Shown piece by piece: positions 6,586 through 22,081 of a stretch of 23,544 nucleotides of DNA. How positions within the stretch are numbered: position 1 is the first letter of the stretch; each line of letters begins with the position of its first letter. The notes beneath the pieces are model-generated. The model searched no databases. It was given only the letters and a program-made list of their open reading frames with translations, and was not told the DNA's origin. Source of the DNA: a virus; IMG/VR virus record IMGVR_UViG_3300021168_000087, positions 1 to 23,544 of that record; one strand, given 5' to 3'. Both the position numbers and the translations under genes were made by a program.

Positions 6586-6680
6586 CCTGCGCACGCTGCG
6601 GAAGGATGGCCAAGGAAAGCGCGCTTTGCCGATCGTGCGCGACGACGTTGGCCAACAAGAAGCGCAAAGAGGTCGAGTGA
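6582..6680 (+). CDS. 32-residue zinc-ribbon microprotein
   Basis: A very small gene overlapping the previous stop (ATGA). The 32-residue product has two Cys-x-x-Cys pairs (Cys3/Cys6 and Cys16/Cys19), followed by a basic tail rich in Lys, typical of a minimal zinc ribbon. The coupled start, correct metal-ligand spacing and lack of any other gene in the slot support it as real. A nucleic-acid or protein-contact role is likely but not shown. Confidence 0.6.
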   Translation: MTCARCGRMAKESALCRSCATTLANKKRKEVE

Positions 6681-6681
6681 C

Positions 6682-6861
6682 ATGGGCAAGGCGACGCAAA
6701 GCTATTGGTCGAACCACCACGCCAAGGAGAAGGCCAAGCGCCGCCTGTCTCCCGAGGATTTGCTCCTGCGCGAGGCGCAAGCCAAACGGATGATCGAGGC
6801 GAGCGCCAAGCTTGGCAACGACAAGCCCAAGGTGTTGCGGGTCTTGAGGCAGCGCTCATGA
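6682..6861 (+). CDS. 59-residue basic phage protein
   Basis: The ATG lies 1 nt after the stop of the zinc-ribbon gene, in the same operon direction. The product is 59 residues, very rich in Lys/Arg and helical (for example A-K-E-K-A-K-R-R-L and L-L-R-E-A-Q-A-K-R). It has no cysteine or membrane segment. The spacing and the absence of a competing frame support it; function is unknown, possibly nucleic-acid binding. Confidence 0.5.
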   Translation: MGKATQSYWSNHHAKEKAKRRLSPEDLLLREAQAKRMIEASAKLGNDKPKVLRVLRQRS

Positions 6862-6935
6862 AGGCGAGAGGCCCTCTCCCTTCGCCGGCCGCGTCGCGCG
6901 CCGCTGCCGCCGGTCGCCTTCAAGGAGCGGGTGCT

Positions 6936-7193
6936 ATGACCATGCCCGGCTTCTGGATGAACGAGACGAGCGGGGTCTTGCGCCCCGCCGTCGAGGCCTA
7001 CCTGAAGCATGAGGCGCTGACCGACGCGCAGATCGCGGCGCTGCGCGCCTACCTCCGGCAATGGATGGCGGCACCGTGGCCACCCGGACCGGGAATCGAG
7101 CGTCTGCGCGCGAAGGTCGACGGCCTGCAGGCACACGAGGCGATCGACGATTGGGTCGACGACGCCCTGGCCGAGGGCATCGACCCGCTGTGA
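6936..7193 (+). CDS. Small acidic phage protein, unknown function
   Basis: The 85-residue product is a recurring type in Rhizobiales prophages (from memory): an N-terminal M-P-G-F-W-M-N-E, a helical stretch with A-Q-I-A-A-L-R-A-Y-L-R-Q-W, and an acidic end with W-V-D-D-A-L. The ATG at 6936 is chosen because AAGGAG (6922-6927) lies 8 nt upstream; an in-frame ATG at 6858, overlapping the preceding stop, would add 26 low-complexity residues. It is the last gene before the xis/int control region. Confidence 0.7.
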   Translation: MTMPGFWMNETSGVLRPAVEAYLKHEALTDAQIAALRAYLRQWMAAPWPPGPGIERLRAKVDGLQAHEAIDDWVDDALAEGIDPL

Positions 7194-7234
7194 GTTTCTG
7201 AGAGTTCGGTCCGCCTACGCGCCTGTCGGATGGA

Positions 7235-7276
7235 CTGAAGGGACCGGTTCCGGCGCTGGAGCCGGTCCCACTTCAG
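7235..7276 (+). other. Long hairpin before xis
   Basis: Twelve base pairs (7240-7251 with 7258-7269, one G-U pair) are extended outside by CTGAA/TTCAG after a small bulge. No T-tract follows. It sits between the last early gene and the operator upstream of xis, so it could limit read-through from the early operon into xis/int or stabilise the mRNA end. Confidence 0.5.
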
Positions 7277-7289
7277 GGGCGCTGGGGGA

Positions 7290-7310
7290 TATGCAAGCTG
7301 AACTTGCATA
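7290..7310. promoter_or_regulatory. Inverted-repeat operator candidate, copy 2, before xis
   Basis: TATGCAAG, five-base spacer CTGAA, CTTGCATA: perfect 8-bp arms. It shares the pattern ATGCAAG-N5-CTTGCAT with 657-679 and lies 17 nt before the xis ATG. A TTGCAT at 7304-7309 could serve as a -35 box, but the matching -10 would fall on the start codon, so promoter placement is uncertain. Confidence 0.6.
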
Positions 7311-7327
7311 AACAACGGGAAGCAAAT

Positions 7328-7750
7328 ATGAAACCTCAAATGGTCGATCCGACCAGCGTCGCGCCCGACACCCCGCTGAGGCTCGACATCGCTGCAAAAC
7401 TGGCTTTTCCCGATGGGTCCATGACCGCAAGCGGTCTACGCCGGGAAATAGCTAAAGGGCGGCTGACGGTCGAGACCATCGCGGGGAAGCAATACACCAC
7501 GCTCGCGAACGTGGAGGAGATGAGGGGACTATGTCGAACGCAGCCAAACCAGCCCGTCTCTGGCTCCGGGACGTCCGGGGGAAAAAGCTCTGGTACATCC
7601 GTGACGACGGACGCAAAATTGCAACTGGCTGCGGCGCTGATGACCGCGCGGGGGCTGAAGAAAAGCTCGCGGAATACCTCGCCGCCCGCATCAAGCCGAA
7701 CTACGACAGCGGACGTGACCCCGCTGCCATCACGCTCGCCGAACTCCTGA
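7328..7750 (+). CDS. xis: Excisionase-like small DNA-binding protein
   Basis: The 140-residue product has a winged-helix/MerR-like unit in its first 65 residues: L-R-L-D-I-A-A-K-L-A-F, then G-S-M-T-A-S-G-L-R-R-E-I-A-K-G-R-L and a strand V-E-T-I-A-G-K-Q-Y-T-T-L. This fits recombination directionality factors that bend DNA at att sites. The C-terminal half is Ser/Thr-rich and low in structure, and its last 220 nt overlap the integrase gene in another frame. From memory, related Rhizobiales proteins have the same S-R-N-T-S-P-like tail, which argues that the overlap is coding in both frames. GGGAAG precedes the ATG. Confidence 0.75.
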   Translation: MKPQMVDPTSVAPDTPLRLDIAAKLAFPDGSMTASGLRREIAKGRLTVETIAGKQYTTLANVEEMRGLCRTQPNQPVSGSGTSGGKSSGTSVTTDAKLQLAAALMTARGLKKSSRNTSPPASSRTTTADVTPLPSRSPNS

Positions 7751-8631
7751 ACATCTACCAGCAGGACCGCGGCGCGAAGATCGCCCGGCCTGAGGCGCTC
7801 GGGCAGCGGGTGGTGAAGCTGCTTGAGTTTTTCGGAACGAAGCCGGTGACGGCGCTGAACAAACGCTTGTGCCGGACCTACGCGGAAGCTCGCGGCAGCG
7901 AACAGGCGGCCAGACGTGAGCTTGAAGATTTGAGCGCGGCGCTTGGCCACGCATACGAAGAAAAGATTCTCAACGTCGATTTTCGCCGGGACATCGAATT
8001 GCCAGCGAAGGCTCCTGCCCGCGACCGATGGCTCACGCGGTCGGAGGCGGCAAGGCTGCTGTGGGCAGCGTGGCGCTTTCGGCAGCGCGAACGAGGCGGG
8101 GAGATCGGCCGCCTGTCCCGACAGCACCTAGCCAGGTTCATTCTGGTGGCGCTCTACACCGGGACGCGCTCGGCGGCGGTCTGCGGGGCGGCCATGGGTC
8201 CGGCGATCGGCCGTGGCTACGTCGACCTCGAACAAGGCGTCCTCTATCGCCGCGCGTCCGGAACAGCAGAGACGAACAAGCGCCAGCCGCCCGTCCGCTT
8301 GCCGGATCGTCTGCTTGCCCATATACGCCGATGGAAGCGTCGGGGCATTTCGCTGAAGGCGGTCGTGGAGTTCAATGGCGAGCCGGTCGGGAGCGTCAAG
8401 AAGGCGTTCGCTCGCTGCGTCGCCGACGCCGGACTGGAGGGTAAGGTGTCGGCGCATACGCTGCGCCATACGGCGATCTCTTGGGCGCTGCAGAATGGCG
8501 CTTCGATTTGGGAGGTCAGCGGCTTCTTCGGCGTTTCGCCGCAGGTGATCCTCAAGGTCTACGGGCACCACTGTCCCGAGCAGCACAAGGCGGTCGCCAA
8601 CGCCATCACCCGCAAGGCGCATGGACGCTAG
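7531..8631 (+). CDS. int: Tyrosine-type phage integrase
   Basis: The 366-residue enzyme inserts and excises phage DNA at att. The C-terminal catalytic domain shows T-G-T-R213, Lys250 in T-N-K-R, the H309-T-L-R312-H box and the nucleophile Tyr344 in K-V-Y-G-H-H. The residue that is usually His or Trp in the L-G-H-S motif is Val335 here (F-F-G-V-S), a change I recall from other alphaproteobacterial integrases of this branch. Residues 1-60 should form the arm-binding domain and 65-150 the core-binding domain. The attachment core starts about 140 nt after the stop, with flanking arm-type repeats. The start overlaps xis by 220 nt; GAGGGG and GGAGGAG lie just upstream. Confidence 0.95.
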   Translation: MSNAAKPARLWLRDVRGKKLWYIRDDGRKIATGCGADDRAGAEEKLAEYLAARIKPNYDSGRDPAAITLAELLNIYQQDRGAKIARPEALGQRVVKLLEFFGTKPVTALNKRLCRTYAEARGSEQAARRELEDLSAALGHAYEEKILNVDFRRDIELPAKAPARDRWLTRSEAARLLWAAWRFRQRERGGEIGRLSRQHLARFILVALYTGTRSAAVCGAAMGPAIGRGYVDLEQGVLYRRASGTAETNKRQPPVRLPDRLLAHIRRWKRRGISLKAVVEFNGEPVGSVKKAFARCVADAGLEGKVSAHTLRHTAISWALQNGASIWEVSGFFGVSPQVILKVYGHHCPEQHKAVANAITRKAHGR

Positions 8632-8662
8632 GGGGCTGGAACAAAAGGTGATGGAAAGGTTC

Positions 8663-8699
8663 TGTGGCCCGGTTGTGGCCCAGTTGGGAGGCCAGTTGG
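8663..8699 (+). repeat. Left arm-type repeats of attP
   Basis: TGTGGCCCGGT (8663-8673) is followed directly by TGTGGCCCAGT (8674-8684), and a degenerate GGCCAGTTGG lies at 8690-8699. The 11-bp spacing keeps the copies on one face of the helix. The same tandem pair occurs on the other side of the core, as expected for integrase arm-binding sites. Confidence 0.7.
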
Positions 8700-8774
8700 G
8701 GAACAAACCGGGACAATTGGGGCCGAACACGACAAAAAACGTCAAATATATCAAAGGGTGGCCTATCCGCGCCG

Positions 8775-8823
<49 letters not shown>

Positions 8824-8856
8824 CATTTCAAAGACTTAGCAACTTCCGGCAAATCG

Positions 8857-8878
8857 TGTGGCCCAGTTGTGGCCTAGT
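8857..8878 (+). repeat. Right arm-type repeats of attP
   Basis: TGTGGCCCAGT (8857-8867) is followed directly by TGTGGCCTAGT (8868-8878). With two following bases, the block matches the left block 8663-8686 at 22 of 24 positions and in the same orientation. Repeats on both sides of the tRNA core indicate a complete P-core-P' site. Confidence 0.7.
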
Positions 8879-8918
8879 TGAAAGCCTAAAGGCCGCCCCG
8901 GACGAGCCCCACACTTGG

Positions 8919-9000
8919 CCGCTGGCGGCATTTAAGCCGGCGAGGCTATCGACGCCCAACGCGGGCCGACTTCGCCGCCAGCGGGGCGCGGTGGCCCCGC
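8919..9000. repeat. Inverted repeats right of attP
   Basis: CCGCTGGCGGC (8919-8929) and its exact complement GCCGCCAGCGG (8974-8984) are 44 nt apart. GCGGGGC (8981-8987) also pairs with GCCCCGC (8994-9000). They may be host-factor or structural elements at the end of attP; no gene is visible between 8632 and 9299. Confidence 0.45.
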
Positions 9001-9015
9001 CGTGGCGCGGGCAAC

Positions 9016-9054
9016 AAAAAAAGCCCCGCCCGACCCGCAAGGGCCAGACGGGGC
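9016..9054 (-). terminator. Leftward intrinsic terminator
   Basis: On the minus strand, a 14-bp stem (9054-9041 with 9036-9023, mismatch-free when G-U pairs are counted) with a 4-nt loop is followed by seven Ts (9022-9016). It would stop leftward transcription, most simply that of the late operon after it has passed antisense through the 9300-11025 genes, before it reaches attP and int. Confidence 0.8.
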
Positions 9055-9104
9055 AAAGACGCCGCAGGGAGGAAAACGGCGGCGATTCGGCGATTAAACT
9101 TTTT

Positions 9105-9148
9105 TCGCCAATTGGCGATATTTCGGTTGACGCGTCGCCAATTGGCGA
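9105..9148. promoter_or_regulatory. Twin palindromic operators around a rightward promoter
   Basis: The 14-bp palindrome TCGCCAATTGGCGA occurs twice, at 9105-9118 and 9135-9148, with centres 30 bp apart (about three helical turns). TTGACG (9127-9132) is a good -35 box, and the second palindrome fills its spacer; the -10 would fall near 9150-9155 and is weak. A dimeric repressor bound here would block the promoter, and cooperative binding or looping is possible. The operon starting at 9300 is the likely target. A GATTC site lies at 9084-9088. Confidence 0.7.
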
Positions 9149-9299
9149 GCATCGTCACGGTCATGGAAGCGGCACGGTCCGCTTCCCCTACCGGAGCGAG
9201 GCGCCTCCGGCGCTACCGACCCCTCCCGAGGGTCGGGGCGGAAAGCAAAGGGAACCAGAGGAGGCAATCCTGCCTCCGGCCCTTTCGGGAGTTCTCTCC

Positions 9300-9494
9300 G
9301 TGCTTCTTCTCTCCTCCACCGACCTCGCGATCGCCTTGGCGATCTCCTCCAACACCCTCCGGGTCGAGGTTCGGCCCTCGCGCTTCGGCGACACCTTCGT
9401 CGCCCTCTCTGACGAGGTGGGCCTCATCGAGGTCCACCTGACCCAGGAGGCGGCAGACGCCCGCCTCGCGGCGATCAGCGCGGCGCTCGAGTGA
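9300..9494 (+). CDS. Small hypothetical protein, first gene of operon beside attP
   Basis: A 64-residue protein, beginning at a GTG with GGGAG 8 nt upstream. The sequence reads as a compact alpha/beta unit: a hydrophobic N-terminus (L-L-L-S-S-T-D-L-A-I-A-L-A-I), strands around L-R-V-E-V and F-V-A-L-S-D-E-V-G-L-I-E-V-H-L, and a C-terminal helix of Ala/Arg. No known domain. The stop overlaps the next start (GTGA), which supports it. The exact start is uncertain because the frame is open far upstream through the operator region. Confidence 0.5.
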   Translation: MLLLSSTDLAIALAISSNTLRVEVRPSRFGDTFVALSDEVGLIEVHLTQEAADARLAAISAALE

Positions 9495-9688
9495 GCGCTG
9501 CGGAGTTCACCGCGTGGGTGGCGCACATGCGCGCCACCCACAATCTTTCCGAGCGCGATCTCGTCAGACTCCTCGGGACTGGCTCGAACCAGATCACCCG
9601 ATGGAAGCGCAATGGCGCGCCGCCGTATATCGCCTTCGCTTGCGCGGCAATCGCGGCTGGCTTGCCCGGGTGGTCGGTCGCCGCATGA
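9491..9688 (+). CDS. Small XRE-like HTH protein
   Basis: The 65-residue product is nearly all one helix-turn-helix domain: W-V-A-H-M-R-A-T-H-N as helix 1, then L-S-E-R-D-L-V-R-L-L-G and S-N-Q-I-T-R-W-K-R-N-G as the paired helices of an XRE-like fold. It could bind the twin palindromes at 9105-9148 and control its own operon; this is an inference from closeness. It begins at GTG overlapping the previous stop (GTGA), and its stop overlaps the next gene (ATGA). Confidence 0.75.
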   Translation: MSAAEFTAWVAHMRATHNLSERDLVRLLGTGSNQITRWKRNGAPPYIAFACAAIAAGLPGWSVAA

Positions 9689-9903
9689 CTGAAATCGAGA
9701 ACTCGTTCACCTGCCCGCGCTGCGGCTTCAAGAGCTACAACCCCAGCGATCAGCGGGAGCGCTATTGCGTGCGCTGCCACCTCTTCGTCGACGACCCCGA
9801 CGATCATCTCGACCGCATGAGAGGCGCTGCATGTTCGGCAGAGGCGACGAAGTTATCGACACGATCCAGACGATCGGCATCGTCGCCAACACGGCGGTGC
9901 TGA
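9685..9903 (+). CDS. Small zinc-ribbon protein
   Basis: The 72-residue product has a classical zinc ribbon in its first 35 residues: C-P-R-C near the start and Y-C-V-R-C about 15 residues later, with a short S-Y-N-P-S-D turn between. Similar mini-proteins (C-P-R-C ... N-P-S-D ... Y-C-x-x-C-H) are widespread in actinobacterial and rhizobial phages, without known function. The basic, Ser/Arg-rich C-terminus lies in the 73-nt overlap with the next gene and is probably unstructured. Start coupled to the upstream stop by ATGA. Confidence 0.75.
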   Translation: MTEIENSFTCPRCGFKSYNPSDQRERYCVRCHLFVDDPDDHLDRMRGAACSAEATKLSTRSRRSASSPTRRC

Positions 9904-10226
9904 TTTACATCGTCTGGCGGTTCGACCAGGCCATCCGTGGAGCCTCCAAGGGGATGAGCGCTGCGATCGGGCAGACCGAGGAATTCCGGCTAGAGTTCCG
10001 ACAGGAGCTCGAACGCACGTGGCGGCGGATCGAAAAGCTCGAGGATGACCTCGCCAAGCTTGCGCAACAATCCGACCGGGCCAAGCTTGGCGAATGGGTC
10101 GGGGAGGCATGGCAGCACATTGTAAAGTTGGAGGCCCGCCAAGACGCGGCTGAGAAGGGCGAGCCGCCGCCTCCGAGCACGCGGCCGACCGACCCGCCGC
10201 TTGGCTCCGGCGGAACGCCCCAATGA
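9831..10226 (+). CDS. Membrane-anchored coiled-coil protein
   Basis: The 131-residue product has one membrane segment at about 12-29 (I-Q-T-I-G-I-V-A-N-T-A-V-L-I-Y-I-V-W), followed by a basic residue pair. A heptad-like charged helix covers about 45-85 (E-E-F-R-L-E-F-R-Q-E-L-E and K-L-E-D-D-L-A-K-L), and the tail is Pro-rich. A cytoplasmic coiled coil tethered to the inner membrane is likely. It could be a superinfection-exclusion, holin-regulating or spanin-like component; none can be chosen from sequence. The ATG at 9831 lies within the preceding gene. Confidence 0.7.
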   Translation: MFGRGDEVIDTIQTIGIVANTAVLIYIVWRFDQAIRGASKGMSAAIGQTEEFRLEFRQELERTWRRIEKLEDDLAKLAQQSDRAKLGEWVGEAWQHIVKLEARQDAAEKGEPPPPSTRPTDPPLGSGGTPQ

Positions 10227-10474
10227 TGGGCCGGCGCCTGACCCAGAATGAAATCATCCAAGCGCGGCGAAGAGCAGAGCGTGGGTATGGGCGCGTGATC
10301 AAAGGCGCGCTGATGTTGCTTCCACGCCCCGTCAGGCGTTGGGTGGTACTACGGCTTGCTGCAATGTTTGTGCGGGCGATGAAGCGCCGAGGCTATACCA
10401 CAAGCGACGTGATGCCCTTGTTCGAGGATGCGTCCGACAACGCGCGCCGCAAGCGCGACTCGGCCAGCGAATGA
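10223..10474 (+). CDS. Small basic hypothetical protein
   Basis: The 83-residue product has a basic N-terminus (Q-A-R-R-R-A-E-R-G), a short hydrophobic/amphipathic stretch (A-L-M-L-L-P-R-P-V-R-R-W-V-V-L-R-L-A-A-M-F-V) that might contact the membrane, and an acidic then basic tail. Both ends overlap neighbours by 4 nt (ATGA), so it is a coupled member of the 9300-11025 operon. I do not recognise the family. Confidence 0.65.
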   Translation: MMGRRLTQNEIIQARRRAERGYGRVIKGALMLLPRPVRRWVVLRLAAMFVRAMKRRGYTTSDVMPLFEDASDNARRKRDSASE

Positions 10475-11025
10475 GACAGTGCGGCGACTGCCAGCTGTGC
10501 TGCAAGCTGGTCCCGGTCAACTCGCTCGGCAAAGACGCGGGCGTGCGCTGCCGCCACCAGAAGGCCGGCAAGGGCTGCCTCGTCTACCACAAGCCAGGGA
10601 TGCCGCCGGAATGCGCGCTCTGGACGTGCCGCTGGCTGGGCAACAACGACACCGCGGATCTCTCGCGCCCCAACCGCTCGCACTATGTCCTCGACGTCAT
10701 ACCCGACTACATCACCATGCTGAACAACGAGACGGGCGAGCGGGAAGCTATCCAGGCGGTGCAGATCTGGGTCGACCCGAACTTTCCCGACGCGCATCGC
10801 GACCCGGCGCTGCGCCGCTACCTTGAGCGGCGCGCGGAGGAAAACATCGTCGGGCTGGTGCGCTGGAACAATGAGCGCGGCCTCGTTATCTTTCCGCCGG
10901 CGCTGTCGCGCGACGGACAATGGAACGAGGTCGGGAGCAACCTTTCCGCCAAGACCCATAGCCTCGCCGAGACGGCGGCGGCGCTCGGCGGCGAGGTCAT
11001 CAACGTGGTGATGGAATCGCGCTAG
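10471..11025 (+). CDS. YkgJ-like Cys-cluster protein
   Basis: The 184-residue protein opens with C-G-D-C-Q-L-C-C (Cys4, 7, 10, 11), followed by Cys27, Cys36, Cys48 and Cys53. This is the signature of the YkgJ/UPF0153 family, thought to bind zinc or an iron-sulfur cluster. The rest is alpha/beta with conserved-looking L-D-V-I-P-D-Y and W-N-N-E-R-G-L-V-I-F-P-P segments; no catalytic role is established. Homologues occur in prophages of many proteobacteria, from memory. It is the last gene of the rightward operon and ends in a CTAG that is also the stop of the leftward holin-like gene. Confidence 0.8.
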   Translation: MRQCGDCQLCCKLVPVNSLGKDAGVRCRHQKAGKGCLVYHKPGMPPECALWTCRWLGNNDTADLSRPNRSHYVLDVIPDYITMLNNETGEREAIQAVQIWVDPNFPDAHRDPALRRYLERRAEENIVGLVRWNNERGLVIFPPALSRDGQWNEVGSNLSAKTHSLAETAAALGGEVINVVMESR

Positions 11026-11330
11026 GGCGTCGGCGGCCGTTGCGCCTGCATGAGCTTCAGCGCGTCCTCCGGCATGATGCAGTGGGTGCTCTTGTCGACC
11101 AGCGCGTTGGTGTCTTTGATGATCTCCGTCCATTGCGAATAGAGCTTGTCGTTGGCGGCGAACAGCGCCGCCACGGTCGTCTCAGTGCGGCTGGTGATGC
11201 GGGACAGGTAATAAAACAGGAACAGCAACAGCGCGATGTTCATCAAGCCCATCGCCAGGGCGAGCGGCTGCTGGCGCAGGGCGTCGACGATGCCGCCAGC
11301 GGTCTTGACGCCTTCTTCCAGAACGCCCAT
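11022..11330 (-). CDS. Single-span membrane protein, holin candidate
   Basis: The 102-residue protein has an amphipathic N-terminus (G-V-L-E-E-G-V-K-T-A-G-G-I-V-D-A-L), a membrane segment (about 23-42, ending F-L-F-Y-Y-L) and a helical soluble tail. It lies directly downstream of the endolysin, the usual site of a holin or lysis accessory, and similar proteins occur there in alphaproteobacterial phages (from memory). The ATG at 11330 is chosen because GGAGGAG precedes it by 6 nt; a GTG at 11351 overlapping the endolysin stop lacks a binding site. The stop TAG shares the CTAG with the opposite-strand gene. Confidence 0.7.
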   Translation of the reverse strand: MGVLEEGVKTAGGIVDALRQQPLALAMGLMNIALLLFLFYYLSRITSRTETTVAALFAANDKLYSQWTEIIKDTNALVDKSTHCIMPEDALKLMQAQRPPTP

Positions 11331-11347
11331 CGGCGGCTCCTCCTCGG

Positions 11348-11887
11348 TCACGCGAGCGCGGACTTGGCGCGGTCGAGATAGGCGATGCGGCTGCCAAGCC
11401 CGTTCAGCCCGCCGTTGATCGCCTTCGTCGCGCCGCGCACATCATCCTTGTCGGCATGCCGGTTGAGCTTGTGGGTCGACCAGTACCAGGCGGCGATCTC
11501 GGCCGCCCACGGCATCTTGCCAGCGTCCTGCGGATGGCTGACGAAGTCGTGGTCGAACGCCTTCGACGCGCCAGTGTAGTTATAACGCCCGGTCAACTGG
11601 ATCAGGCCGCGGCCCTTGAACCGGCGGCCATCGCCCTTGACCACGTTGCCGAGATCCTTGCGACCCTCGTAGGCCGCGCCGCTGGCGTATTCCTCCATCG
11701 TCTGGAAATGGTCGCTTTCGTGCGCGACCTGGGCGAGGAAGTGCGCCTGCCGCAGCGGCGTGTCGATGTGATACTTCTTGGTCAGCCGCGGCAGCTCGGC
11801 AGCAAAGCCTTCGATGATCTCGGCCTTGCCGTGCGGGGCGATCTTGCGAAGCACGGCTTCCCATTGCTCCGGGGTACGATCGGTCAC
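11348..11887 (-). CDS. GH19-type phage endolysin
   Basis: The 179-residue enzyme belongs to the chitinase-like GH19 endolysins that cleave peptidoglycan glycan strands. It shows Q-A-H-F-L-A-Q-V-A-H-E57-S-D-H-F, with Glu57 as likely general acid, M-E-E-Y-A as the second acidic site (65-66), and F-K-G-R-G-L-I-Q-L-T-G-R-Y-N-Y (90-104), the family signature. There is no signal peptide or membrane arrest signal, so release needs a holin; the next gene is a candidate. Translation starts at GTG (11885-11887), which has GGAGG upstream and overlaps the stop of the LuxR-type gene (GTGA). Confidence 0.93.
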   Translation of the reverse strand: MTDRTPEQWEAVLRKIAPHGKAEIIEGFAAELPRLTKKYHIDTPLRQAHFLAQVAHESDHFQTMEEYASGAAYEGRKDLGNVVKGDGRRFKGRGLIQLTGRYNYTGASKAFDHDFVSHPQDAGKMPWAAEIAAWYWSTHKLNRHADKDDVRGATKAINGGLNGLGSRIAYLDRAKSALA

Positions 11888-12114
11888 GTTCGTCCTCCGA
11901 GGTCGGCGCAGGTCAAAATGCCCTGCGCGACGGCGACCGCGGTCGCCTGTTTCAGGCTCACGCAATTGAGCTTGTAGCGGCTGTGGTCGAGGTTGGTTTT
12001 GACGGTGGAGAACGCGATCCCGAGGATGCTCGCCGTCTCGGCGTAGGTCTTGCCGCGCGCGGCCCACAGCAGGCACTCGCGCTCGCGGCGCGAGAGCGGG
12101 CAGGCCGGCGCCAT
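11884..12114 (-). CDS. Stand-alone LuxR/GerE-type HTH regulator
   Basis: The 76-residue product is one complete LuxR-type DNA-binding domain: L-S-R-R-E-R-E-C-L-L-W-A-A-R-G-K, T-Y-A-E-T-A-S-I-L-G-I (scaffold helix) and S-T-V-K-T-N-L (recognition helix), closing with K-Q-A-T-A-V-A-V-A-Q-G. No receiver, autoinducer or other sensor domain is present. It lies between tail-fibre genes and the endolysin, with its stop overlapping the endolysin start. Single-domain LuxR proteins occur in other alphaproteobacterial prophages; a role in late or lysis timing is inference. The ATG at 12114 gives the exact domain; the binding site is weak. Confidence 0.85.
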   Translation of the reverse strand: MAPACPLSRRERECLLWAARGKTYAETASILGIAFSTVKTNLDHSRYKLNCVSLKQATAVAVAQGILTCADLGGRT

Positions 12115-12121
12115 CAGCAGG

Positions 12122-12289
12122 CTACTTCGGCGGCGTGGCTGCCGCTGCTGCCGCCTGGGATTTGATGGCGATGGTCTTGAGCAGCGCCTCGAGCGCGTCG
12201 GCGATCCAGCGTTCGTAGGACGTTCCCGCGTCCCCACCATCGATCTTCTCCTTCTGCGCCAGGAGGGCGGCGATCTCTTCGTGGGTCAT
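12122..12289 (-). CDS. Small late protein, unknown function
   Basis: The 55-residue product has two charged helices (E-E-I-A-A-L-L-A-Q-K-E-K and Y-E-R-W-I-A-D-A-L-E-A-L-L-K) and an Ala/Pro tail. The gene lies 5 nt after the fibre gene and 7 nt before the LuxR-type gene in the same direction, so it belongs to the late operon. No recognised domain; a small chaperone or structural accessory is possible but unproven. Confidence 0.6.
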   Translation of the reverse strand: MTHEEIAALLAQKEKIDGGDAGTSYERWIADALEALLKTIAIKSQAAAAAATPPK

Positions 12290-12294
12290 TGGGG

Positions 12295-12834
12295 TCAGTC
12301 GTAGGGCTGGATGTGGAGGATGACGTCGATGGTCGCCGCCGAGCCCTGCGCGGTGGTGATGCGAAAGAACAAGGTCGCGGTGGTGAAGAAGGTCGCCGGC
12401 GCGAGCGCCAGCGTCAGGTCGATCGCGTTGCCCGCCGTGGCTGGCGAAGTCGAGGTCAGGCCGGACAGCGCCTGCGGCGAGGCGATGGCGACGCCGCCGC
12501 CCGAGGCGGCGTTGTAGAGCGCGGCCTGCGCGGCGGTGAGCGGGACGCCGGTGTCGGCGATCACGGTCAGGCGGGTGACGCGGTAGCGAGTGACCCCGGG
12601 AGGCAGCGGCACGATGAGCGGCGTGTCGGCGACAAGGTTGGCGCTGACCGCCTTGGCGATCACCGCGTAGCTCGCGACCTCCGTCATCTTCGGGACGGCG
12701 AAGCCGCCGACGGTCGACGCGTCGCCGACCACCAGACGGTTGTGGTCGGTGTCGACCCACACCTCGCCCGCCATCGGCGTGTTGGTCGCGATCTGCGCCG
12801 CCGTGCCGCGCCGGAGTTGAAGTTGCTCGCTCAT
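12295..12834 (-). CDS. Tail fibre protein with Mtd-like N-terminus
   Basis: The 179-residue protein opens with Q-L-R-R-G-T-A-A-Q and G-E-V-W-V-D-T-D-H-N-R-L-V-V-G-D, the motif seen at the N-terminus of major tropism determinant and many tail-fibre proteins, where it forms an attachment knob. The rest is beta-rich, Ala/Thr-rich and probably a trimeric sandwich. Located just after the tail-tip gene (ATGA overlap), it is a likely receptor-contact or baseplate decoration protein. No C-type lectin variable region or nearby reverse transcriptase is visible, so this is not evidence of a diversity-generating element. Confidence 0.75.
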   Translation of the reverse strand: MSEQLQLRRGTAAQIATNTPMAGEVWVDTDHNRLVVGDASTVGGFAVPKMTEVASYAVIAKAVSANLVADTPLIVPLPPGVTRYRVTRLTVIADTGVPLTAAQAALYNAASGGGVAIASPQALSGLTSTSPATAGNAIDLTLALAPATFFTTATLFFRITTAQGSAATIDVILHIQPYD

Positions 12835-15401
12835 GGGACGGTCCCGAGGTCGGAGATGTGGATCGGCGGGTCGACGATCGCGCCGAAGTCGTCGCTGACG
12901 TCGATCACCCCGGCGACGGGGCCGAGGTCGAGCGGGATCCCGCTCGCCAGCTTAATCGCGATCGGGTGCGGCACGACGCCGAAATTGCCGAGGTCGATGA
13001 CGGCGCCGATCGCGTCCGCGACCCCGCCGAAGTCGTCGGTGATGGTCGGCGCGGCGCTGACCTGGCCGAGGTCGACCGGCGAGCCGGATTGCAGCTGGAT
13101 GGCGATCGGGTGGGAGGTTCCGGCCGAGCCGATGGTGATCTGGTAGACCGCGCAGTCGGACAGCATCTGCGCGCCGCCGCCGAAGGCGTTGAAGCTCTGG
13201 AACTTGAAGTAGATCGTCTGGCCGGTGACGCCAGCCGGAATGTCGTAAGTGACGATTGCGTCGTCCAGGCGGGCGAAAAAGCTCCCGGTCGAGTGCGCGG
13301 CCGGCGCCGTCCCGTTCAGGCCGCGATAGAGCCCGGTGAGGGCGTAGGCGTTGGCCGCGGTGAGGGTCGCATTGGTGTAGCTGACGAGCTCGTTGTCGAC
13401 CAGCGAGCGGGTGACGCCGAGCGAAGCCGAGGTCGGGTCGACGTTGGAGAGCGAGCCGGCGCTCATCGTGAGATCGACCGACAGCGTGTGGGTGGGGTCA
13501 GTCCCGGCGATGGCGATCGGCAGCGGGGCCGAGAGCAGCCCTTGGATCAACGGCTGGGTGATGGTCGCGACCTGGGCGTAGGTCGCATTGTCGAACGAGG
13601 CCCAGATGTTGGCGCCGCCCCATTGCGTCGATGCGCCCGCCGCCTGCGGCGAGGCGCCGGCCCAGACCTGGGCCACGCCGGCGGTCAGGGAGGTCGGCGG
13701 CTGATAGATGAGCGGGTTGTTGACGGAGATGGCGGTCTGGGAGAACGAGTGCTGGCGGCTGGTCGAACCGGCGGACGGGTTCGCCGCCGGGGTGGCGATG
13801 CCGGAGACCAGCTCCTCGGCGGTGACGGTCAGGAGGCCGTTGTCGTCCTCCTCGATCGAGACGATGCGGACATGGGCCTGATCCAACCCGAGCGCGAGGT
13901 CGGTGATCGTCACCACGTCCATCGGATCGAGAAGGCAAAACTCCCACGAGAGCTTGAAGGTGTACTTGGCGCGGACGTAGAGGCCGCGCTGGAGGATCAG
14001 TTGCGCGACCACCGGCCCGATGGTGAACTCGTCGCAAATCTCATGCGCCGAAATGGTCGAGCCGACGCGCGGGCCGTACATCTCGATCTGCGCCTGATCG
14101 CGCGCCTCGACCGGCGTCACGCTGTAGGCGTTCGACTGGCTGGTGACTTCGATGCGCTGGATGTTGGGCAGCGAATAGACGTCGGCGCGGTCGACGTTGA
14201 CGGGATCAGCGTCCTTCTCGGCATAGAAGTCGGCGTCGCCGAGGTCATAGATCGGGGTCAAGAGCGGCGCAAACCCGGTCGCCGCCTTGACCGTGTAGGT
14301 CATGATGACCGGCTTGCCCTCGTCGCCGTTGGAAAAGATGTAATTGCCGATCGGGTTCATCCCGTAAGTGCCGGGGAACAGGGTGAAGTTCGACGGCGAG
14401 ATGACGAAGATGCCGATGTAGAGGAGCGGGATGCCGCTCTCGGCATAGACCACGCCGCCGTCGTGGACGAAATTGTCTGGCGAAGAGACGCCGATCTGGG
14501 CGGGCAAGTAGTAGGTGGTGCCGCTGTCTGGCGGCACGACATAGGGGATGGAGAAGTTGCGGGTGAAGGTCTGGGTCGAGCCTTCGACTACTTCGGTGTC
14601 GCCGTAGGGAATAAACTTGAGCAGGCCGCCGCTCCACACCGCGGCGCAATTGCAAATCTGGAGCCAGCGGTTGAGGATCGAGGAGGCGGCCTCCGCCGAT
14701 GAGATCAGCGGCGAGAAGCAGATGCCAAGCGAGCGGCAATAGGTCTGCAAGGAAGCGTCGCTGCCCGCGCCGTAGAGCGTCGTCATGTCGATCGAGGCAG
14801 GATCGAAGCCGGCGCCGTAGCGCGGGTTGGTGAGGAAATCGAGGATCACTTGCGCGGGGTCGGCGTCGTGCCCGTTGACGCCGGAGCCGGCGAGGTTGCC
14901 GAACACCTCGAAAGTGAGGTTGCCGATGGTCGGCGTCATGCCCATCTGGTACCACGCCGCCGCCATGTAGGCGGTGCCGGGGTAGTGCAGCGCCTGCGAC
15001 GGATACCACCATGTCGTCCAGTTCCAGACGTCTTGCTCGCCGGCCGGCCCGCTGCCGCCGCCGTAAGCGTTGAACATCAGGTACTGGAAGGTCGAGATCG
15101 ACTGGTCCTTCCAGGTGAAGCCGATGCCGTTGATCGGCCCCTCGCACAAGGCGAGGATGATGTCGGCGCGATATTCGGTTTGCTTCTGACTGCCGCCGGT
15201 GAGCCCGCTCAAGGCGTGCGACTTGCCCTTGCCCTTCGGCTCGGTCTGGAACGAGGTGAAGCCGTTCATCCAGATCAGGTTGCCGCTCATCTTCTGCCGG
15301 CCCCACAGGATCGGGATCGGCAGGGTAGCGACCGAGGTGTTCAGTTGTAGCCCGGTGTAGGCGGGCTTCTGATCGACCTTCTTGCCGAGCAGGAAGCTCA
15401 T
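12831..15401 (-). CDS. Tail-tip / host-specificity protein
   Basis: The 856-residue protein is the central tail-tip component, comparable to lambda J and GTA gp15. Its start, S-F-L-L-G-K-K, then I-P-I-L-W-G-R-Q-K-M-S-G-N and E-Y-R-A-D-I-I-L-A-L-C-E-G-P-I, is typical of the family; a phage-tail_3-like region follows (about 280-600, with R-D-Q-A-Q-I-E-M and a D-P-M-D-V-V-T-I-T-D segment). Fibronectin-like modules come next. The last 94 residues hold two copies of a 46-48-residue repeat (H-P-I-A-I ... D-L-G ... D-D-F-G ... D-L-G). It is shorter than GTA gp15, about 1300 residues from memory. Overlaps on both sides by ATGA. Confidence 0.88.
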   Translation of the reverse strand: MSFLLGKKVDQKPAYTGLQLNTSVATLPIPILWGRQKMSGNLIWMNGFTSFQTEPKGKGKSHALSGLTGGSQKQTEYRADIILALCEGPINGIGFTWKDQSISTFQYLMFNAYGGGSGPAGEQDVWNWTTWWYPSQALHYPGTAYMAAAWYQMGMTPTIGNLTFEVFGNLAGSGVNGHDADPAQVILDFLTNPRYGAGFDPASIDMTTLYGAGSDASLQTYCRSLGICFSPLISSAEAASSILNRWLQICNCAAVWSGGLLKFIPYGDTEVVEGSTQTFTRNFSIPYVVPPDSGTTYYLPAQIGVSSPDNFVHDGGVVYAESGIPLLYIGIFVISPSNFTLFPGTYGMNPIGNYIFSNGDEGKPVIMTYTVKAATGFAPLLTPIYDLGDADFYAEKDADPVNVDRADVYSLPNIQRIEVTSQSNAYSVTPVEARDQAQIEMYGPRVGSTISAHEICDEFTIGPVVAQLILQRGLYVRAKYTFKLSWEFCLLDPMDVVTITDLALGLDQAHVRIVSIEEDDNGLLTVTAEELVSGIATPAANPSAGSTSRQHSFSQTAISVNNPLIYQPPTSLTAGVAQVWAGASPQAAGASTQWGGANIWASFDNATYAQVATITQPLIQGLLSAPLPIAIAGTDPTHTLSVDLTMSAGSLSNVDPTSASLGVTRSLVDNELVSYTNATLTAANAYALTGLYRGLNGTAPAAHSTGSFFARLDDAIVTYDIPAGVTGQTIYFKFQSFNAFGGGAQMLSDCAVYQITIGSAGTSHPIAIQLQSGSPVDLGQVSAAPTITDDFGGVADAIGAVIDLGNFGVVPHPIAIKLASGIPLDLGPVAGVIDVSDDFGAIVDPPIHISDLGTVP
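12834..13115 (-). repeat. Tandem protein repeat at tail-tip C-terminus
   Basis: Residues 763-810 and 811-856 of the tail-tip protein are related repeats: both carry H-P-I-A-I near the start, S-G-x-P-x-D-L-G, D-D-F-G and a closing D-L-G. They probably form stacked beta units at the tip. Confidence 0.75.
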
Positions 15402-15844
15402 GGCGCTTCGCCCCAGTAGGAGGCGTAAAGCGCGATCTCGATCTTGAGCAGCTTGTTGCGGGCGACCTCCTCCTCGATCACCGAGCCGACCGGCTGGAAG
15501 GAATGGACGATGGTGAGCGGATCGGCGCGGGTGACGATCGCGCCGTGCGAGAAGCAGCGGCCGACGCGGAACATCACCACGTCGCCCGCTTCCGGTTTTT
15601 TTACCTGATGCGAGCGGGCCAATAGGACGCCGAGGAAGCGCTCCTCGCTGCGGTGCAGATACCAGTCGGCCGGATAGGGGCGCGGGTCGAACAGGGGAAC
15701 CAGCCCGACGTTGATGTAGACGCGCGCCAAGAGCATCGCGCAATCGACGCCCGCGCCCTTGACGTCGGCCTGATGGACCCAGGGCGTCCTGATCCAGCTG
15801 CGCGCCTCCGCGACCACGGCTGCGCGCTCGGCCTCGGCGCTCAT
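15398..15844 (-). CDS. NlpC/P60 tail peptidase
   Basis: The 148-residue protein is a papain-like peptidase of the NlpC/P60 class, used by tails to cut peptidoglycan during DNA entry. The catalytic Cys35 lies in G-V-D-C-A-M-L, His100 in F-S-H-G-A-I-V, and His114 in T-I-V-H-S-F may be the third polar residue. Order (DUF2163, this gene, tail tip) is the same as gp13-gp14-gp15 of the Rhodobacter GTA. Both ends overlap neighbours by ATGA. Confidence 0.9.
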   Translation of the reverse strand: MSAEAERAAVVAEARSWIRTPWVHQADVKGAGVDCAMLLARVYINVGLVPLFDPRPYPADWYLHRSEERFLGVLLARSHQVKKPEAGDVVMFRVGRCFSHGAIVTRADPLTIVHSFQPVGSVIEEEVARNKLLKIEIALYASYWGEAP

Positions 15845-16707
15845 ACGCTCATCTCGACCGGAGGCACGAACGGGAAGCCGCGGAAGTGCTGGATGTTGTT
15901 GAACTTCGCCTTGCACGTCCCTTGCGTGTGGTCGCAGCCGAAATAGGCGTTGAACAGGTCGCCAACGACTGGGACCGCCGGCAGGGGATAGAGGAGGCCG
16001 AGCGCCACGCCGGGATCGACCGCGCTGATCGTGGTGCGGATCCCGGCATTGAGGCCGGTCTCCATGTTGAGCGCGCCCTGCAACATGCCGATGTTGGCGC
16101 CGCTCCACAGGATGGTGGTCTGCGACGAGCCGGCCGCGATGGCGCCCGAGAAGGTGAACAGCCCTTTGTTCACGGTGCAACCCTGGTCGTAGAGGACGTG
16201 GCTGCACGTCGCCGAGAACAAATTGTGCGGCATGTCATATTCGAGCACCGCAAGGTCGCTGGCGACGGTGATCTTGGCCTGCGTGCGCCCGACGCTGTCG
16301 ATGGTCGAGACGCGGCCCTGGAACAAGAGCACCCCGTCCGCGCCCCCGGTCAATTGGTTTGACAGGAAGACGCGCCAGCGCTGCACCTTGGCGCCGTCGA
16401 ACGCGCCGTCGGCGATCGCCCGCATGAGCGGCGCGCCCTTGATGGTGGTGGTCGGGTAGGCGGCGAGCGTGATCTGCTGCTTGTCGACCTCGAGGCCGGT
16501 CGAGCATTTGTACTTGAGGCCGTCGATCAGCGCCGAGTTGGCGATGAAGGTCACGCCGTTCCACGTCACGCTCTGGTCGTAGTTGGTCAGGTGGAAGGCG
16601 TCGCCGGTGGCGAGCGTGATGGTGAAGCAGTCGGCGATGGTCATCACGGCGTCGCTCTTGCGCGCCGCGTCGAGGTAGGTCTTGAGCGGAAAGGAGACCT
16701 GCTTCAC
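15841..16707 (-). CDS. DUF2163 / BR0599-family tail hub protein
   Basis: The 288-residue protein matches the DUF2163 and phage BR0599 C-terminal families: N-terminal A-D-C-F-T-I-T-L-A-T-G, F-H-L-T-N-Y-D-Q-S-V-T-W-N-G, and a Cys-bearing C-terminal region with C-S-H-V-L-Y-D-Q-G-C and F-N-A-Y-F-G-C-D-H-T-Q-G-T-C. In GTA-type tails this protein joins the distal tail ring to the tip. It starts with GTG (16705-16707) overlapping the stop of the DUF2460 gene (GTGA), so its translation probably depends on that gene. The four late cysteines could bind metal or form disulfides. Confidence 0.9.
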   Translation of the reverse strand: MKQVSFPLKTYLDAARKSDAVMTIADCFTITLATGDAFHLTNYDQSVTWNGVTFIANSALIDGLKYKCSTGLEVDKQQITLAAYPTTTIKGAPLMRAIADGAFDGAKVQRWRVFLSNQLTGGADGVLLFQGRVSTIDSVGRTQAKITVASDLAVLEYDMPHNLFSATCSHVLYDQGCTVNKGLFTFSGAIAAGSSQTTILWSGANIGMLQGALNMETGLNAGIRTTISAVDPGVALGLLYPLPAVPVVGDLFNAYFGCDHTQGTCKAKFNNIQHFRGFPFVPPVEMSV

Positions 16708-18374
16708 AGCCGCACCTGCCGGAACTTGAGCGACTTCAATTGCCAGAGGTTGTCCATGAACTGCTCAAAGTCGATCATGTCCTCGAGGAAGCGGCAGATG
16801 AAGCCGTAGCGGAAGTCGGCCGAGATCACGACCCCGCTAGCCGGGGCTGAGGCGAAGGTGATCTCCGAGCCGGCGACCTGCCATCCCGATGGGGTCGGAA
16901 CGCCGTCGAGATAGATGGCGTCGACCCCCGTCACCCATGAGACCGCTTCGACCTGGCCGCCGAACACGCGCACGAACTGGAAGGCGACGGTCGTTCCGTC
17001 GCCCGCGCCGATGCCCTGGCCGACCATGGTGTTGAAGTCGGGATCGATGAACAGGAACGAGCCGCGCTGGCCGCCGCGCGCGAGATAAAAGCCCATGAGG
17101 GTTTGCAGCGTCTGATTGCCGGCGCCGGGATAGGCGGCGTTGGAAGCGAGCGCATCGTAGGAGAGCTCGAACTCCCACAGCGCGTCGGTCCACAGGGCGA
17201 GCCTGACCTCCGCGCCCGAGGCGTGGGTGACGGTGATGGTGTCGAAGGTCGGGCGGCGATGCACCGACCAACCGAGGCCTGGAAGGAACGGCAGCGCACC
17301 GGGCGGGGTGACAAGCGCGCCCATGCCGCGCACGTCGGCGAAGGCGTCGACCTCGCCGGTCCCGACCGCGGCCGCAAAGCCGGCGCCTCTGACATCGGCG
17401 CCGGCGTCAACTTCGCCCGCGCCGCTGACGGCTGTGATAACCGCGCCCGCGCCGGTGACGGTCGCGCCCGCGTCAACCCTACCAGCGCCGGGGGACGTGA
17501 CTGCGCCCGCCCCTGTGACGGTCGCGCCCGCATCTGCTTCGCCCGCCCCGCGAGCGACAGTGATGGTCGCGCCCGCCCCTGTGACGGTCGCTGCGGCATC
17601 GACCTCGCCGACGCCGGCAAGCGGCGGCGCGCCTGCCGAGGCCCATTGCTCAAGCGCGACCTGCGTCACCAACGCCTGAGTGGCGACGCTCGTCGTCGTC
17701 GCCCATTCCTCCAGCGCGACCTGCGTGACTTGCGCGGGCGCATTGGTCGCCGCCCATTCCTCCAGCGCGGATTGGGTGGCGAGCGCGTTGGTGGGGATTG
17801 ACGCGCCTGCGGTGAGGCCACTGGTGAACCCTGCCGGGACCGCGCCGCTGAAAGCGCTGTCGCCGAAGTTGGCGGTGTACGTGTGCCCACTGGTATTGAG
17901 GAAGGCGTAGGGATAGAGAGGGACGCCGGTATTGCCTATCGAAACCAAACTTATCCCGCCAACACCCGTATTGGGGGCGGCGCTCGCGTTGCCGTTCCAA
18001 TTGCCCGCAGGCGCAACGCGGAACCAGATTAGTTGATTGACGAGATCCAGCGCGATCCCGATGACATCGCCATTCGCCCGCGCGCCTAAACTTGATCCCG
18101 TATTGACGCCTGCAAGCTGGATCGCTCCGGCATTGGTGACGTTGCACCAAAGCGCCGGAGACGCTCCGGCAAGAGAAGCTCCTTGCGCCGCCGCTCCGAC
18201 AACGGAAGACGCACCCCACGTCGTCGCGGTGACTTCCCAGTAGAACTTGCCTGTGATCTGCCGATCAGCAGCACGAACACCGCCGCCAACCCCAGCAGCT
18301 GTTATCGTCAGGTTGCCATTCGTCAGGTTGATGCTGGCGCTCTTGTCGGTCGTGCTCCAGGCGGTGTTCGCCAT
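16704..18374 (-). CDS. SPRY-like / repeat / DUF2460 fusion tail protein
   Basis: The 556-residue protein has four parts. Residues 1-190 look like a SPRY or lectin-like sandwich (G-K-F-Y-W-E-V-T, then D-V-I-G-I-A-L-D and L-I-W-F-R-V). Residues 198-247 contain three copies of Q-x-A-L-E-E/Q-W-A, a motif common in phage tail proteins. Residues 254-353 hold five Gly/Ala/Asp repeats (G-x-G-x-x-D-A-x-A-x-V). Residues 361-556 are a complete DUF2460 distal-tail domain (G-W-S-V-H-R-R-P, W-E-F-E-L-S-Y, F-L-E-D-M). A second DUF2460 gene lies at 20393-22081. The fusion places a possible receptor-binding domain on the distal tail ring. Start overlaps the previous stop by 1 nt (TGATG). Confidence 0.85.
   Translation of the reverse strand: MANTAWSTTDKSASINLTNGNLTITAAGVGGGVRAADRQITGKFYWEVTATTWGASSVVGAAAQGASLAGASPALWCNVTNAGAIQLAGVNTGSSLGARANGDVIGIALDLVNQLIWFRVAPAGNWNGNASAAPNTGVGGISLVSIGNTGVPLYPYAFLNTSGHTYTANFGDSAFSGAVPAGFTSGLTAGASIPTNALATQSALEEWAATNAPAQVTQVALEEWATTTSVATQALVTQVALEQWASAGAPPLAGVGEVDAAATVTGAGATITVARGAGEADAGATVTGAGAVTSPGAGRVDAGATVTGAGAVITAVSGAGEVDAGADVRGAGFAAAVGTGEVDAFADVRGMGALVTPPGALPFLPGLGWSVHRRPTFDTITVTHASGAEVRLALWTDALWEFELSYDALASNAAYPGAGNQTLQTLMGFYLARGGQRGSFLFIDPDFNTMVGQGIGAGDGTTVAFQFVRVFGGQVEAVSWVTGVDAIYLDGVPTPSGWQVAGSEITFASAPASGVVISADFRYGFICRFLEDMIDFEQFMDNLWQLKSLKFRQVRL
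17316..17615 (-). repeat. Five Gly-x-Gly-x-x-Asp-Ala repeats
   Basis: Five units of about 20 residues (each around G-x-G-x-x-D-A-x-A-x-V-x-G-x-G) make up residues 254-353 of the SPRY/DUF2460 protein. The DNA is correspondingly repetitive and could expand or contract by recombination. Confidence 0.8.
17634..17783 (-). repeat. Three A-L-E-E-W-A repeats
   Basis: Residues 198-247 of the SPRY/DUF2460 protein contain three spaced copies of T-Q-x-A-L-E-E/Q-W-A. Such units link domains in many phage tail proteins. Confidence 0.75.
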
Positions 18375-19879
18375 CAGGCGACGACTTTCGGCCCGATCTG
18401 CGCGCTATTGACCGCCGCAGCAGTCCACGCCGCCCCGGTATTCGGGTCAGTCAAGTCCATCCGCCACGCCCATTGCCAGCCGGACGTGGTCAGGACCAGT
18501 GTCGGCGAGGCGACGGTGGTCGCGCCGCTCTTGAGTTGCACCGCGGCGGTGCGGGTTCCGGCGTCGCTCTTTTGCATGTAGGCGCGCACCGTGGTGGCGA
18601 TCACCGTCGTCGGCGTCGAGGCGATGGAGGCGACGCCGTAGAAGTCGGCGTCGCCGGGGTTGCTGTCGAACACGTAGGAGGTCGCGCCGTCCTGCTGCGG
18701 CTCTGAAACCGCTTGCCAGTTCGCGGGTGTGGAAGCGTATGTCCACGACATCAACGCCGACCGTATAGGACTGGTCGTGACAGGATTGGCTTGCGGGAAA
18801 GCGGCGTAGGATTGGGTCGCCGTGGCCATGGTTGTTTGCGCAGAGAGGGGATTGTTCCAACTGCCGACTGACGTGTCACACATCGCACCGACCCAGTACT
18901 GAACGCCTTTGACAATGGCGACCCCGGTGAACGCGAACGTGTTCGTCCCGGTTAGGACAGGATTGACGACAGCAGTCGCTGACGCCAGCACCGCTCCCGG
19001 CCCGTTAGCCCCGTTGTCGGCGAAGATGGCGCACTTCATGTTGCCCGAGTTGCCGGTTGCGGTCGATATTCCGACGCTGGTCACCGTGCCGCTGTAACCA
19101 GCGATGAAGGCTGTGAACACTGCCGTGTTATTGGCAATGGAGGTGCTCTGACCCCCGCCCTGCACCGGCGAAGTCTGCGTCAACGCGCCGGTCGAGGTGC
19201 GGGCGAATTGCACGCTCTGATCGCTCGCGGGCATCCGGATGAAGCAGCGGATGTCGCCCAGCCACACGCCGGTCGCTGCGCCGCTCTGCCAGAACAGGTC
19301 ATCGATAAAATGACTAGAAACGACGGTAGAGCCGTTTCCGATTTGAAGCTTGTTAGCGTAATTGTTGGCTGTGCCGCCCCGGGTGTTGAGACTGGTCGCG
19401 GTGAAATCAGCGACATTGTTGCCGTTTTTGCGGACAGTGAAACTGCCGCTCGTATTGCTGATAACCACCTCGAACTCGAAAGCGTACCAGGTGCTCGCCA
19501 CGGGAAACGCGCCCGTGTAAGTCGCCAGCACGGTTCCGGTCGAAGCGCCCGATGTCAACAAGATCGCGCCATCCGAACGAAATACGATAGAACATTGCGC
19601 CGTCGAACCATCGGTCAACTGAAAATACGCGCCCAGGGTCGAGCCACTGACTGCGGCTGTCTGCTCAAACGAGACGACGAGATGGTGGACGGCGTCATTG
19701 ACGCCGCTGCTTTTGACAAGATTCGAATTCGCGCTGGTAAAACGAAGACACTGGCTGCCAAACCGGCCTGGAGACAAAGGCGAAAACCCACCGATATTGG
19801 TCGCGCTATCCCAATAGCCGTTGAGCATGTCAGCGGGCAGCGCGTAGAGATCGAAGCCGTCGCCAAAGGAATACGCCAT
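18374..19879 (-). CDS. LamG-like tail decoration protein
   Basis: The 501-residue protein begins with a LamG/concanavalin-type sandwich (residues 1-220): F-G-D-G-F-D at the start, H-H-L-V-V-S-F-E, S-T-W-Y-A-F-E-F-E-V and I-D-D-L-F-W-Q-S near its end, all typical of phage tail lectin-like domains. A Ser/Thr/Ala-rich region follows, and the C-terminus (about 375-501) resembles a second beta-sandwich. A carbohydrate- or receptor-contact role is likely. It lies between two tail genes and has no signal peptide. The start is 1 nt after the Gp80-like stop; its own stop overlaps the next ATG (TGATG). Confidence 0.75.
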   Translation of the reverse strand: MAYSFGDGFDLYALPADMLNGYWDSATNIGGFSPLSPGRFGSQCLRFTSANSNLVKSSGVNDAVHHLVVSFEQTAAVSGSTLGAYFQLTDGSTAQCSIVFRSDGAILLTSGASTGTVLATYTGAFPVASTWYAFEFEVVISNTSGSFTVRKNGNNVADFTATSLNTRGGTANNYANKLQIGNGSTVVSSHFIDDLFWQSGAATGVWLGDIRCFIRMPASDQSVQFARTSTGALTQTSPVQGGGQSTSIANNTAVFTAFIAGYSGTVTSVGISTATGNSGNMKCAIFADNGANGPGAVLASATAVVNPVLTGTNTFAFTGVAIVKGVQYWVGAMCDTSVGSWNNPLSAQTTMATATQSYAAFPQANPVTTSPIRSALMSWTYASTPANWQAVSEPQQDGATSYVFDSNPGDADFYGVASIASTPTTVIATTVRAYMQKSDAGTRTAAVQLKSGATTVASPTLVLTTSGWQWAWRMDLTDPNTGAAWTAAAVNSAQIGPKVVA

Positions 19880-19880
19880 C

Positions 19881-20392
19881 TCACTGCTCGTTGACCGCGG
19901 TGCCGGGGGTCAGTTGCGGCGAGGTGCCGCCAGTGACGGTGAGCGCCGGGGTGATCGAGCCGCGATACATGATGACCAGCGCGCCGACGCAATTGGTACC
20001 GGCGGTCGGGACGCCGATCGAGAACCAGCTCTCGGTCTCGGTGCCGCTGGTCGAGGCGGGGAAGGTGATCGCGGTCGACGGGTTGGCGGTCGAACCGGTG
20101 ACCGTCCAGGCGCCGGGCGCGCGCGCCACCGGCACTCGCGCGTAGCCGGCATAGGCTGCTTCGTTGGTCGAGAGCGTGCCGGCCGCGCCAGGATCGGCGG
20201 TGTGCAGCGCCACGCACAGAACCGTCGCCGGATTGGTCGCGGTGTTGTCGGCGACGCCAGCGATGCCGACGCCCTGAAGGTTCAGCTTCAAGAGCGCGTT
20301 GGCGTAAGTTCCGCCCTTGCCGCCGACCGCGAGTGCGGCGAGCGGCGCAAGCACGAGCGCCGCCGCGCCGAGTGCGGCGATAATCTTGAGCT

Positions 20393-20396
<4 letters not shown>
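19881..20396 (-). CDS. Gp80-like tail protein with signal-peptide-like start
   Basis: The 171-residue protein has two parts. Residues 1-23 read as a Sec signal peptide: basic start (M-K-L-K), hydrophobic core and an A-L-A-type cleavage site. The rest matches a common phage tail family: T-Y-A-N-A-L-L-K-L, V-A-L-H-T-A-D-P-G, N-E-A-A-Y-A-G-Y-A-R-V and G-A-W-T-V. Virion proteins are assembled in the cytoplasm, so a signal peptide is unusual. The start is firm because the ATG overlaps the upstream stop (ATGA), although a later start cannot be excluded. Either the leader is a membrane anchor, or the protein is exported. Confidence 0.8.

Positions 20397-22077
<1,681 letters not shown>

Positions 22078-22081
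<4 letters not shown>

Follow-up and report, generated by a model that had tools for sequence, protein, structure and literature searches.

Gp80, a known virion family, has a variant with a Sec-type leader that occurs repeatedly, and one such protein is encoded in a stretch of 23,544 nucleotides of viral DNA (IMG/VR record IMGVR_UViG_3300021168_000087, positions 1 to 23,544, hereafter the window), where an earlier note, made from the sequence alone, had pointed to a tail-family protein with such a leader and had suggested an exported or membrane-held form of it. The open reading frame is indeed present on the minus strand, and its first 23 residues have the anatomy that was described, M-K-L-K followed by a hydrophobic core of about 13 residues and then A-L-A. 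The Gp80-like nature of the body was also confirmed by the Pfam profile (PF23140; E 4.7e-11, 43.6 bits versus a curated cut-off of 27, residues 51-134), Gp80 being the only Pfam match of this ORF, while PHROGs assigns the same region to phrog_240, 'head protein'. Among the literature titles surveyed, none reports a Gp80 with a leader.

The gene is placed between a DUF2460/Gly-rich gene and a 501-aa gene, within a minus-strand tail cluster which also includes a tape-measure-like gene and a large gene coding for Phage-tail_3 and Rcc01698 domains (Table 1). DUF2460 genes occur twice in this cluster; in one of them the domain is C-terminal, behind a weak SPRY match that lies under its cut-off, and in the other it is N-terminal, ahead of a Gly-rich tail. 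The same arrangement, with Gp80 flanked on both sides by DUF2460 genes, was also seen in contigs L002, L009 and L153. The window, with a GC content of 65%, does not cover the whole phage genome, since the record IMGVR_UViG_3300021405_000368, which is 100% identical over window positions 1-14686 (in two pieces), continues past its left end.

Table 1. Positions in the window of the leadered Gp80 gene, its parts and the neighbouring genes of the tail cluster
Feature	Position	Strand	Remarks
Gp80-family ORF with Sec-type leader	19881..20396	-	171 aa, stop included
Shine-Dalgarno-like GGAGAG	20403..20408	-	6 nt before ATG
ATGA overlap	20393..20396	-	stop of upstream tail gene / start of Gp80 ORF
Predicted leader	20328..20396	-	residues 1-23, cleavage expected after ALA
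Predicted mature body	19884..20327	-	residues 24-171, one helix + beta-rich fold
Cys61 codon	20214..20216	-	common to five leadered bodies
Cys136 codon	19989..19991	-	inside 5-residue insertion versus leaderless rows of alignment A1
Upstream tail gene	20393..22081	-	DUF2460 domain, then Gly-rich C-terminus
Downstream 501-aa gene of tail cluster	18374..19879	-	phrog_2448 (function unknown in PHROGs)
Second DUF2460 gene	16704..18374	-	
Baseplate hub gene	15841..16707	-	Phage_phiJL001_Gp84_N, Phage_BR0599

To judge by the start signals, the leader is part of the translated product. The ATG has the GGAGAG site ahead of it and overlaps the stop of the preceding tail gene, and the end of the leader coincides exactly with the N-terminus of the leaderless relatives, which begin with M-A-G-G-K-G in L003 and L153 and with M-S-K-G-N or M-S-K-S-N in many others. 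None of the codons ATG, GTG and TTG occurs in the window at the position of that leaderless start (codons 23-28), and therefore a leaderless product cannot simply begin downstream. The nearest in-frame alternatives are codon 15 (GTG) and codon 36 (TTG), neither of them with a purine-rich site within the 18 bases on its 5' side. On these grounds, a true start downstream of the leader, one of the two outcomes which the earlier note had named as refuting its own reading, was rejected.

The charged n-region, the hydrophobic core and the terminal A-x-A of a Sec substrate were recognised by a simple rule of our own and by eye. Under this rule, only 2 of the 142 window ORFs pass, the Gp80 ORF and a PEP-CTERM protein, as do 2 of the 638 window start codons which have 60 open codons after them. 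Since 329 of 20,000 shuffles of the residues of the Gp80 ORF pass as well, composition alone yields such a leader in fewer than 2% of cases. The recurrence of the leader on eight other contigs is a stronger argument than these chance counts.

In fact, of the 190 distinct Gp80 bodies in the sample, 182 are leaderless and 8 have a leader, the latter being spread over nine contigs, one of which is the window. The statement of the earlier note that a leader is not normal for tail parts is thus borne out within this family, in a sample that leans towards the query (the best 80 of 395 relatives in one search and the best 80 of 259 in another). The sample was derived from 221 domain hits in 211 sources, which gave 213 ORFs with a match starting within the first 25 positions of the profile, 212 rows with a usable junction, 191 distinct bodies and, after removing one contained fragment, 190. 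A body was counted as leadered when its 10-residue hydropathy exceeded 2.0 and no start was present at the junction, a cut set after inspecting the list; leadered rows reach at least 2.06 and the others at most 1.73, with the rows at 1.66-1.73 having a Met at the junction. A further match to the junction pattern, L137, was dropped as a Gly-rich protein. None of the genome-contig rows scored was leadered.

In all eight leaders, a Lys or Arg close to the start is followed by a hydrophobic core and by an A/V-x-A site (Ala at -1, Ala or Val at -3), which directly precedes the usual family N-terminus. The leaders themselves are largely different in sequence (the window, L002, L009, L138, L142, the close pair L028/L141, and L211), and a Shine-Dalgarno-like site stands before each of the seven leadered starts examined. 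With a stricter Sec rule, 6 of the 196 members tested pass, every one of them leadered; L211, with Asp at position 2, fails. Signal peptides usually evolve faster than the proteins that they precede, and between the window and L002 the leader likewise changes somewhat faster than the body: of the leader codons, 9 are identical, 6 differ synonymously and 8 non-synonymously, versus 81, 31 and 37, respectively, of 149 body codons (stop included). As regards gene neighbourhood, the flanks examined include a DUF2460 gene next to Gp80 in 9 of 16 leadered rows (5 contigs) and in 5 of 196 leaderless ones, and the L028 group adjoins a tape-measure gene.

A search of 50,697 deposited phage records gave 12 matching records with each of four leadered queries, and five of these 12 had entered the sample. 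The matches begin after the leader, except for that of the L028 query in OL963731, which reaches residue 15, the annotated gene there starting with M-S-K-G-N; no leader was seen in these 12 records, the N-termini having been read in five of them.

The trees do not settle the number of origins, and the leader perhaps arose more than once. A quick tree of 109 rows gave four changes, of which the starred branches force one, and a careful tree of 58 rows gave three, of which they force two; in the latter, built with the 50 leaderless rows most similar to the leadered ones and with Cys masked in all rows, a single change was found in 0% of 200 bootstrap trees from a bootstrap that had not settled. 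The AU test did not reject one clade of all eight leadered bodies (p 0.057), and gave p 0.49 for the seven without L211.

With regard to the fold, an AlphaFold2 model computed from alignment A4 has a mean pLDDT of 89.7 and a pTM of 0.81, the body blocks lying at 84-98 and the leader, predicted as coil, at 55-73. The top PDB match of this model is 8jou, GP4 fibre I (Foldseek E 6.8e-4, 8jou_a), to which the predicted structure aligns with Z 10.4 and rmsd 3.5 over 117 residues in VIA; the A4 profile also matches 8jou chain a (E 3.5e-9). The next matches are the neck/connector chains K of Sf14 (9c39, Z 9.0) and Bas63 (9mt4, Z 8.8), and the first nine VIA rows are all virus tail, neck or baseplate parts, rows with Z < 8 being, by the tool's own note, possibly of little meaning. 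The likeness to GP4 fibre I thus extends to sequence family, profile match, fold and location in a tail gene cluster, whereas a Sec-type leader and an extra pair of Cys set the window subfamily apart; in addition, tape-measure, DUF2460, hub and Rcc01698-like genes are found in the window cluster, while Pfam calls GP4 a podophage. In the case of the Sf14 and Bas63 chains, the resemblance covers model residues 26-171, the predicted mature part, but is one of fold only, with 13% identity.

The body has kept the core of the family. Among leaderless rows, 41 columns reach 80% conservation; leadered rows retain these at 0.80-0.95, versus 0.78-1.0 (median 0.90) in the leaderless rows themselves. One of the 41 is the start Met, which is absent from leadered rows by definition. 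Moreover, Gp80 is present as a single copy in each of the nine leadered records, several of which are fragments.

Cysteine content distinguishes leadered from leaderless bodies. Seven of the eight leadered bodies have two Cys and one has four, while the 182 leaderless bodies have none in 77 cases, one in 89, two in 13, three in 2 and five in 1, with four in none of them. Three layouts were found: Cys61/Cys136 in the window, L002, L009, L138 and L142; Cys75/Cys128 by ungapped count (A4 columns 75 and 133) in L028 and L141; and the four Cys of L211. At A4 columns 61, 75, 119, 126, 133, 136 and 145, all of them Cys positions of leadered bodies, no Cys is found in any of the 84 leaderless rows. 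The fourth Cys of L211 is Cys115, which is shared with 30 of those 84 rows and is absent from the other seven leadered rows. Fisher's test of leader versus Cys gave 5.6e-9 with rows taken as independent and 5.4e-4 if only the three layouts count, and, because five of the eight bodies share one layout, the true value should lie between the two or below. More paired and fewer single Cys fit the pattern that an oxidising compartment would be expected to favour. Nevertheless, paired Cys do not require export, since a disulfide network has been described in the capsid proteins of phage 7-7-1, in a text passage that does not name export (PMC12796354). A search with the Cys61 motif returned 47 stretches, three of them the known leadered members L138, L139 and L142; the other 44 gave no match to the Gp80 family at E < 1e-3, and thereby neither a new member nor a counter-example. 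This search was not exhaustive, since the pattern missed L002, a known carrier.

The leader and the Cys pattern together fit Sec export followed by folding in an oxidising compartment. From them we infer that the gene product would be a Sec preprotein, exported by the Sec machinery of the host and cut by signal peptidase I after ALA, which would release a 148-residue Gp80 fold with the same N-terminus as the leaderless relatives; after reaching the oxidising periplasm, this mature part would fold there and form a disulfide between Cys61 and Cys136. Although made with the tail operon, the protein would then act outside the cytoplasm, where, by imitating the phage's own fibre/neck domain on the envelope side, it might occupy or mask the site used by virions, blocking re-adsorption or superinfection and sparing progeny or the infected cell. 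Export, under either this role or a structural one, is considered probable, and an exported form is the best reading of the gene, so that the earlier interpretation was right in kind and is partly supported, by the recurrent leaders, the processing site at the exact junction and the Cys pattern, with export itself still a deduction from sequence. The complete statement, with export, cleavage, disulfide and blocking, is our first choice, held tentatively and at slightly less than even confidence; a surface decoy, as the earlier note had put it, is possible.

The blocker role is proposed by analogy with lambda Lom. If the protein is indeed a blocker, phage envelope exclusion proteins such as Cor, Llp and Ltp, the last a membrane-held mimic of a tail component, would act in a similar way. 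Lom has a signal peptide and is an envelope protein coded between the tail spike and tail fibre genes, within a tail gene cluster (PMC12309495). It differs in being an outer-membrane beta-barrel, whereas the leadered Gp80 comes from a virion fibre/neck family.

The role ranked close behind that of a blocker keeps export and changes the function. The protein would be a virion part matured in the periplasm, exported, oxidised and joined to the assembled virion once lysis brings cytoplasm and periplasm together, with the structural role of its leaderless relatives. The retained core residues and the single copy in each leadered record fit such an unchanged role as well, and the tail, neck or baseplate nature of the first nine VIA rows speaks for it, as does L153, which holds a leaderless Gp80 in the same slot between DUF2460 genes. 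Nevertheless, tailed virions assemble in the cytoplasm, and a periplasmic part would therefore be unreachable until lysis; furthermore, no precedent was found in the literature, as judged by titles. A virion part is regarded as somewhat unlikely, and the blocker is preferred.

Two further explanations are ranked lower. A hydrophobic N-terminus can serve as an uncleaved anchor, which would hold the body at the inner membrane, as an insert during entry or for assembly, but the core is short for this, Ala at -1 and A/V at -3 are found in all eight leadered bodies, and the junction falls exactly at the leaderless start. The entry-phase membrane insert of the earlier note is disfavoured by the same features and by the low-confidence coil of the leader in the AlphaFold2 model, and anchoring is the least probable of the explanations considered. 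Only a little more credible is a leader without export, in which a tail protein that stays in the cytoplasm would have gained an Ala/Leu-rich N-terminal extension by chance, the genome being GC-rich. The GC content of the window and the shuffles which pass the Sec rule would allow it, but such an accident sits poorly with the recurrence in eight distinct bodies with diverged leaders, with the scarcity of window ORFs that pass the rule and with the Cys parity of leadered bodies.

Other candidate exported proteins were observed on these contigs. The PEP-CTERM gene of the window (1615-2343, plus strand) codes for a product of 242 aa that begins with a Sec-like leader and has a PEP-CTERM motif (PF07589, E 4.5e-8) at its C-terminus; its contig also has RecT, YqaJ and an integrase-like gene (27.0 bits versus a cut-off of 27.1). 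Relatives are present in 11 viral contigs, one of them an overlapping record of the same phage, with two early cysteines kept in 11 of 11, and none was found in the 50,697 deposited phages; by its sequence, the protein looks like a member of a phage-borne family of exosortase-type surface proteins. L269 and L270, which enter no count given here, have relatives of this gene together with Gp80-like genes without a leader. In L211, the ORFs 1432-2004, 7176-7916 and 7916-8782 around the leadered Gp80 all begin with Sec-like leaders, and the last of them matches Glyco_hydro_56 (PF01630, E 1.7e-7). No PHROG match was obtained for the four neighbours tested, so that no tail context emerged for this Gp80 member, and no relative of 7176-7916 was found in the viral contigs, apart from the ORF itself, or in the deposited phages. 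This region of L211 is possibly a block of exported proteins.

In tailed phages, the components of the particle are regarded as being produced and put together in the cytoplasm. It is conceivable, though we put it forward with less confidence than the blocker statement, that tailed phages have repeatedly routed a fibre/neck domain through Sec and given it disulfides, either to be added at lysis or to act as an envelope mimic. Leader plus paired Cys would be a signature to seek in other tail families. If the protein is a virion part, periplasmic maturation of a virion component would be shown to be possible; if it is a blocker, it would represent a new source of exclusion proteins, built from the phage's own particle.
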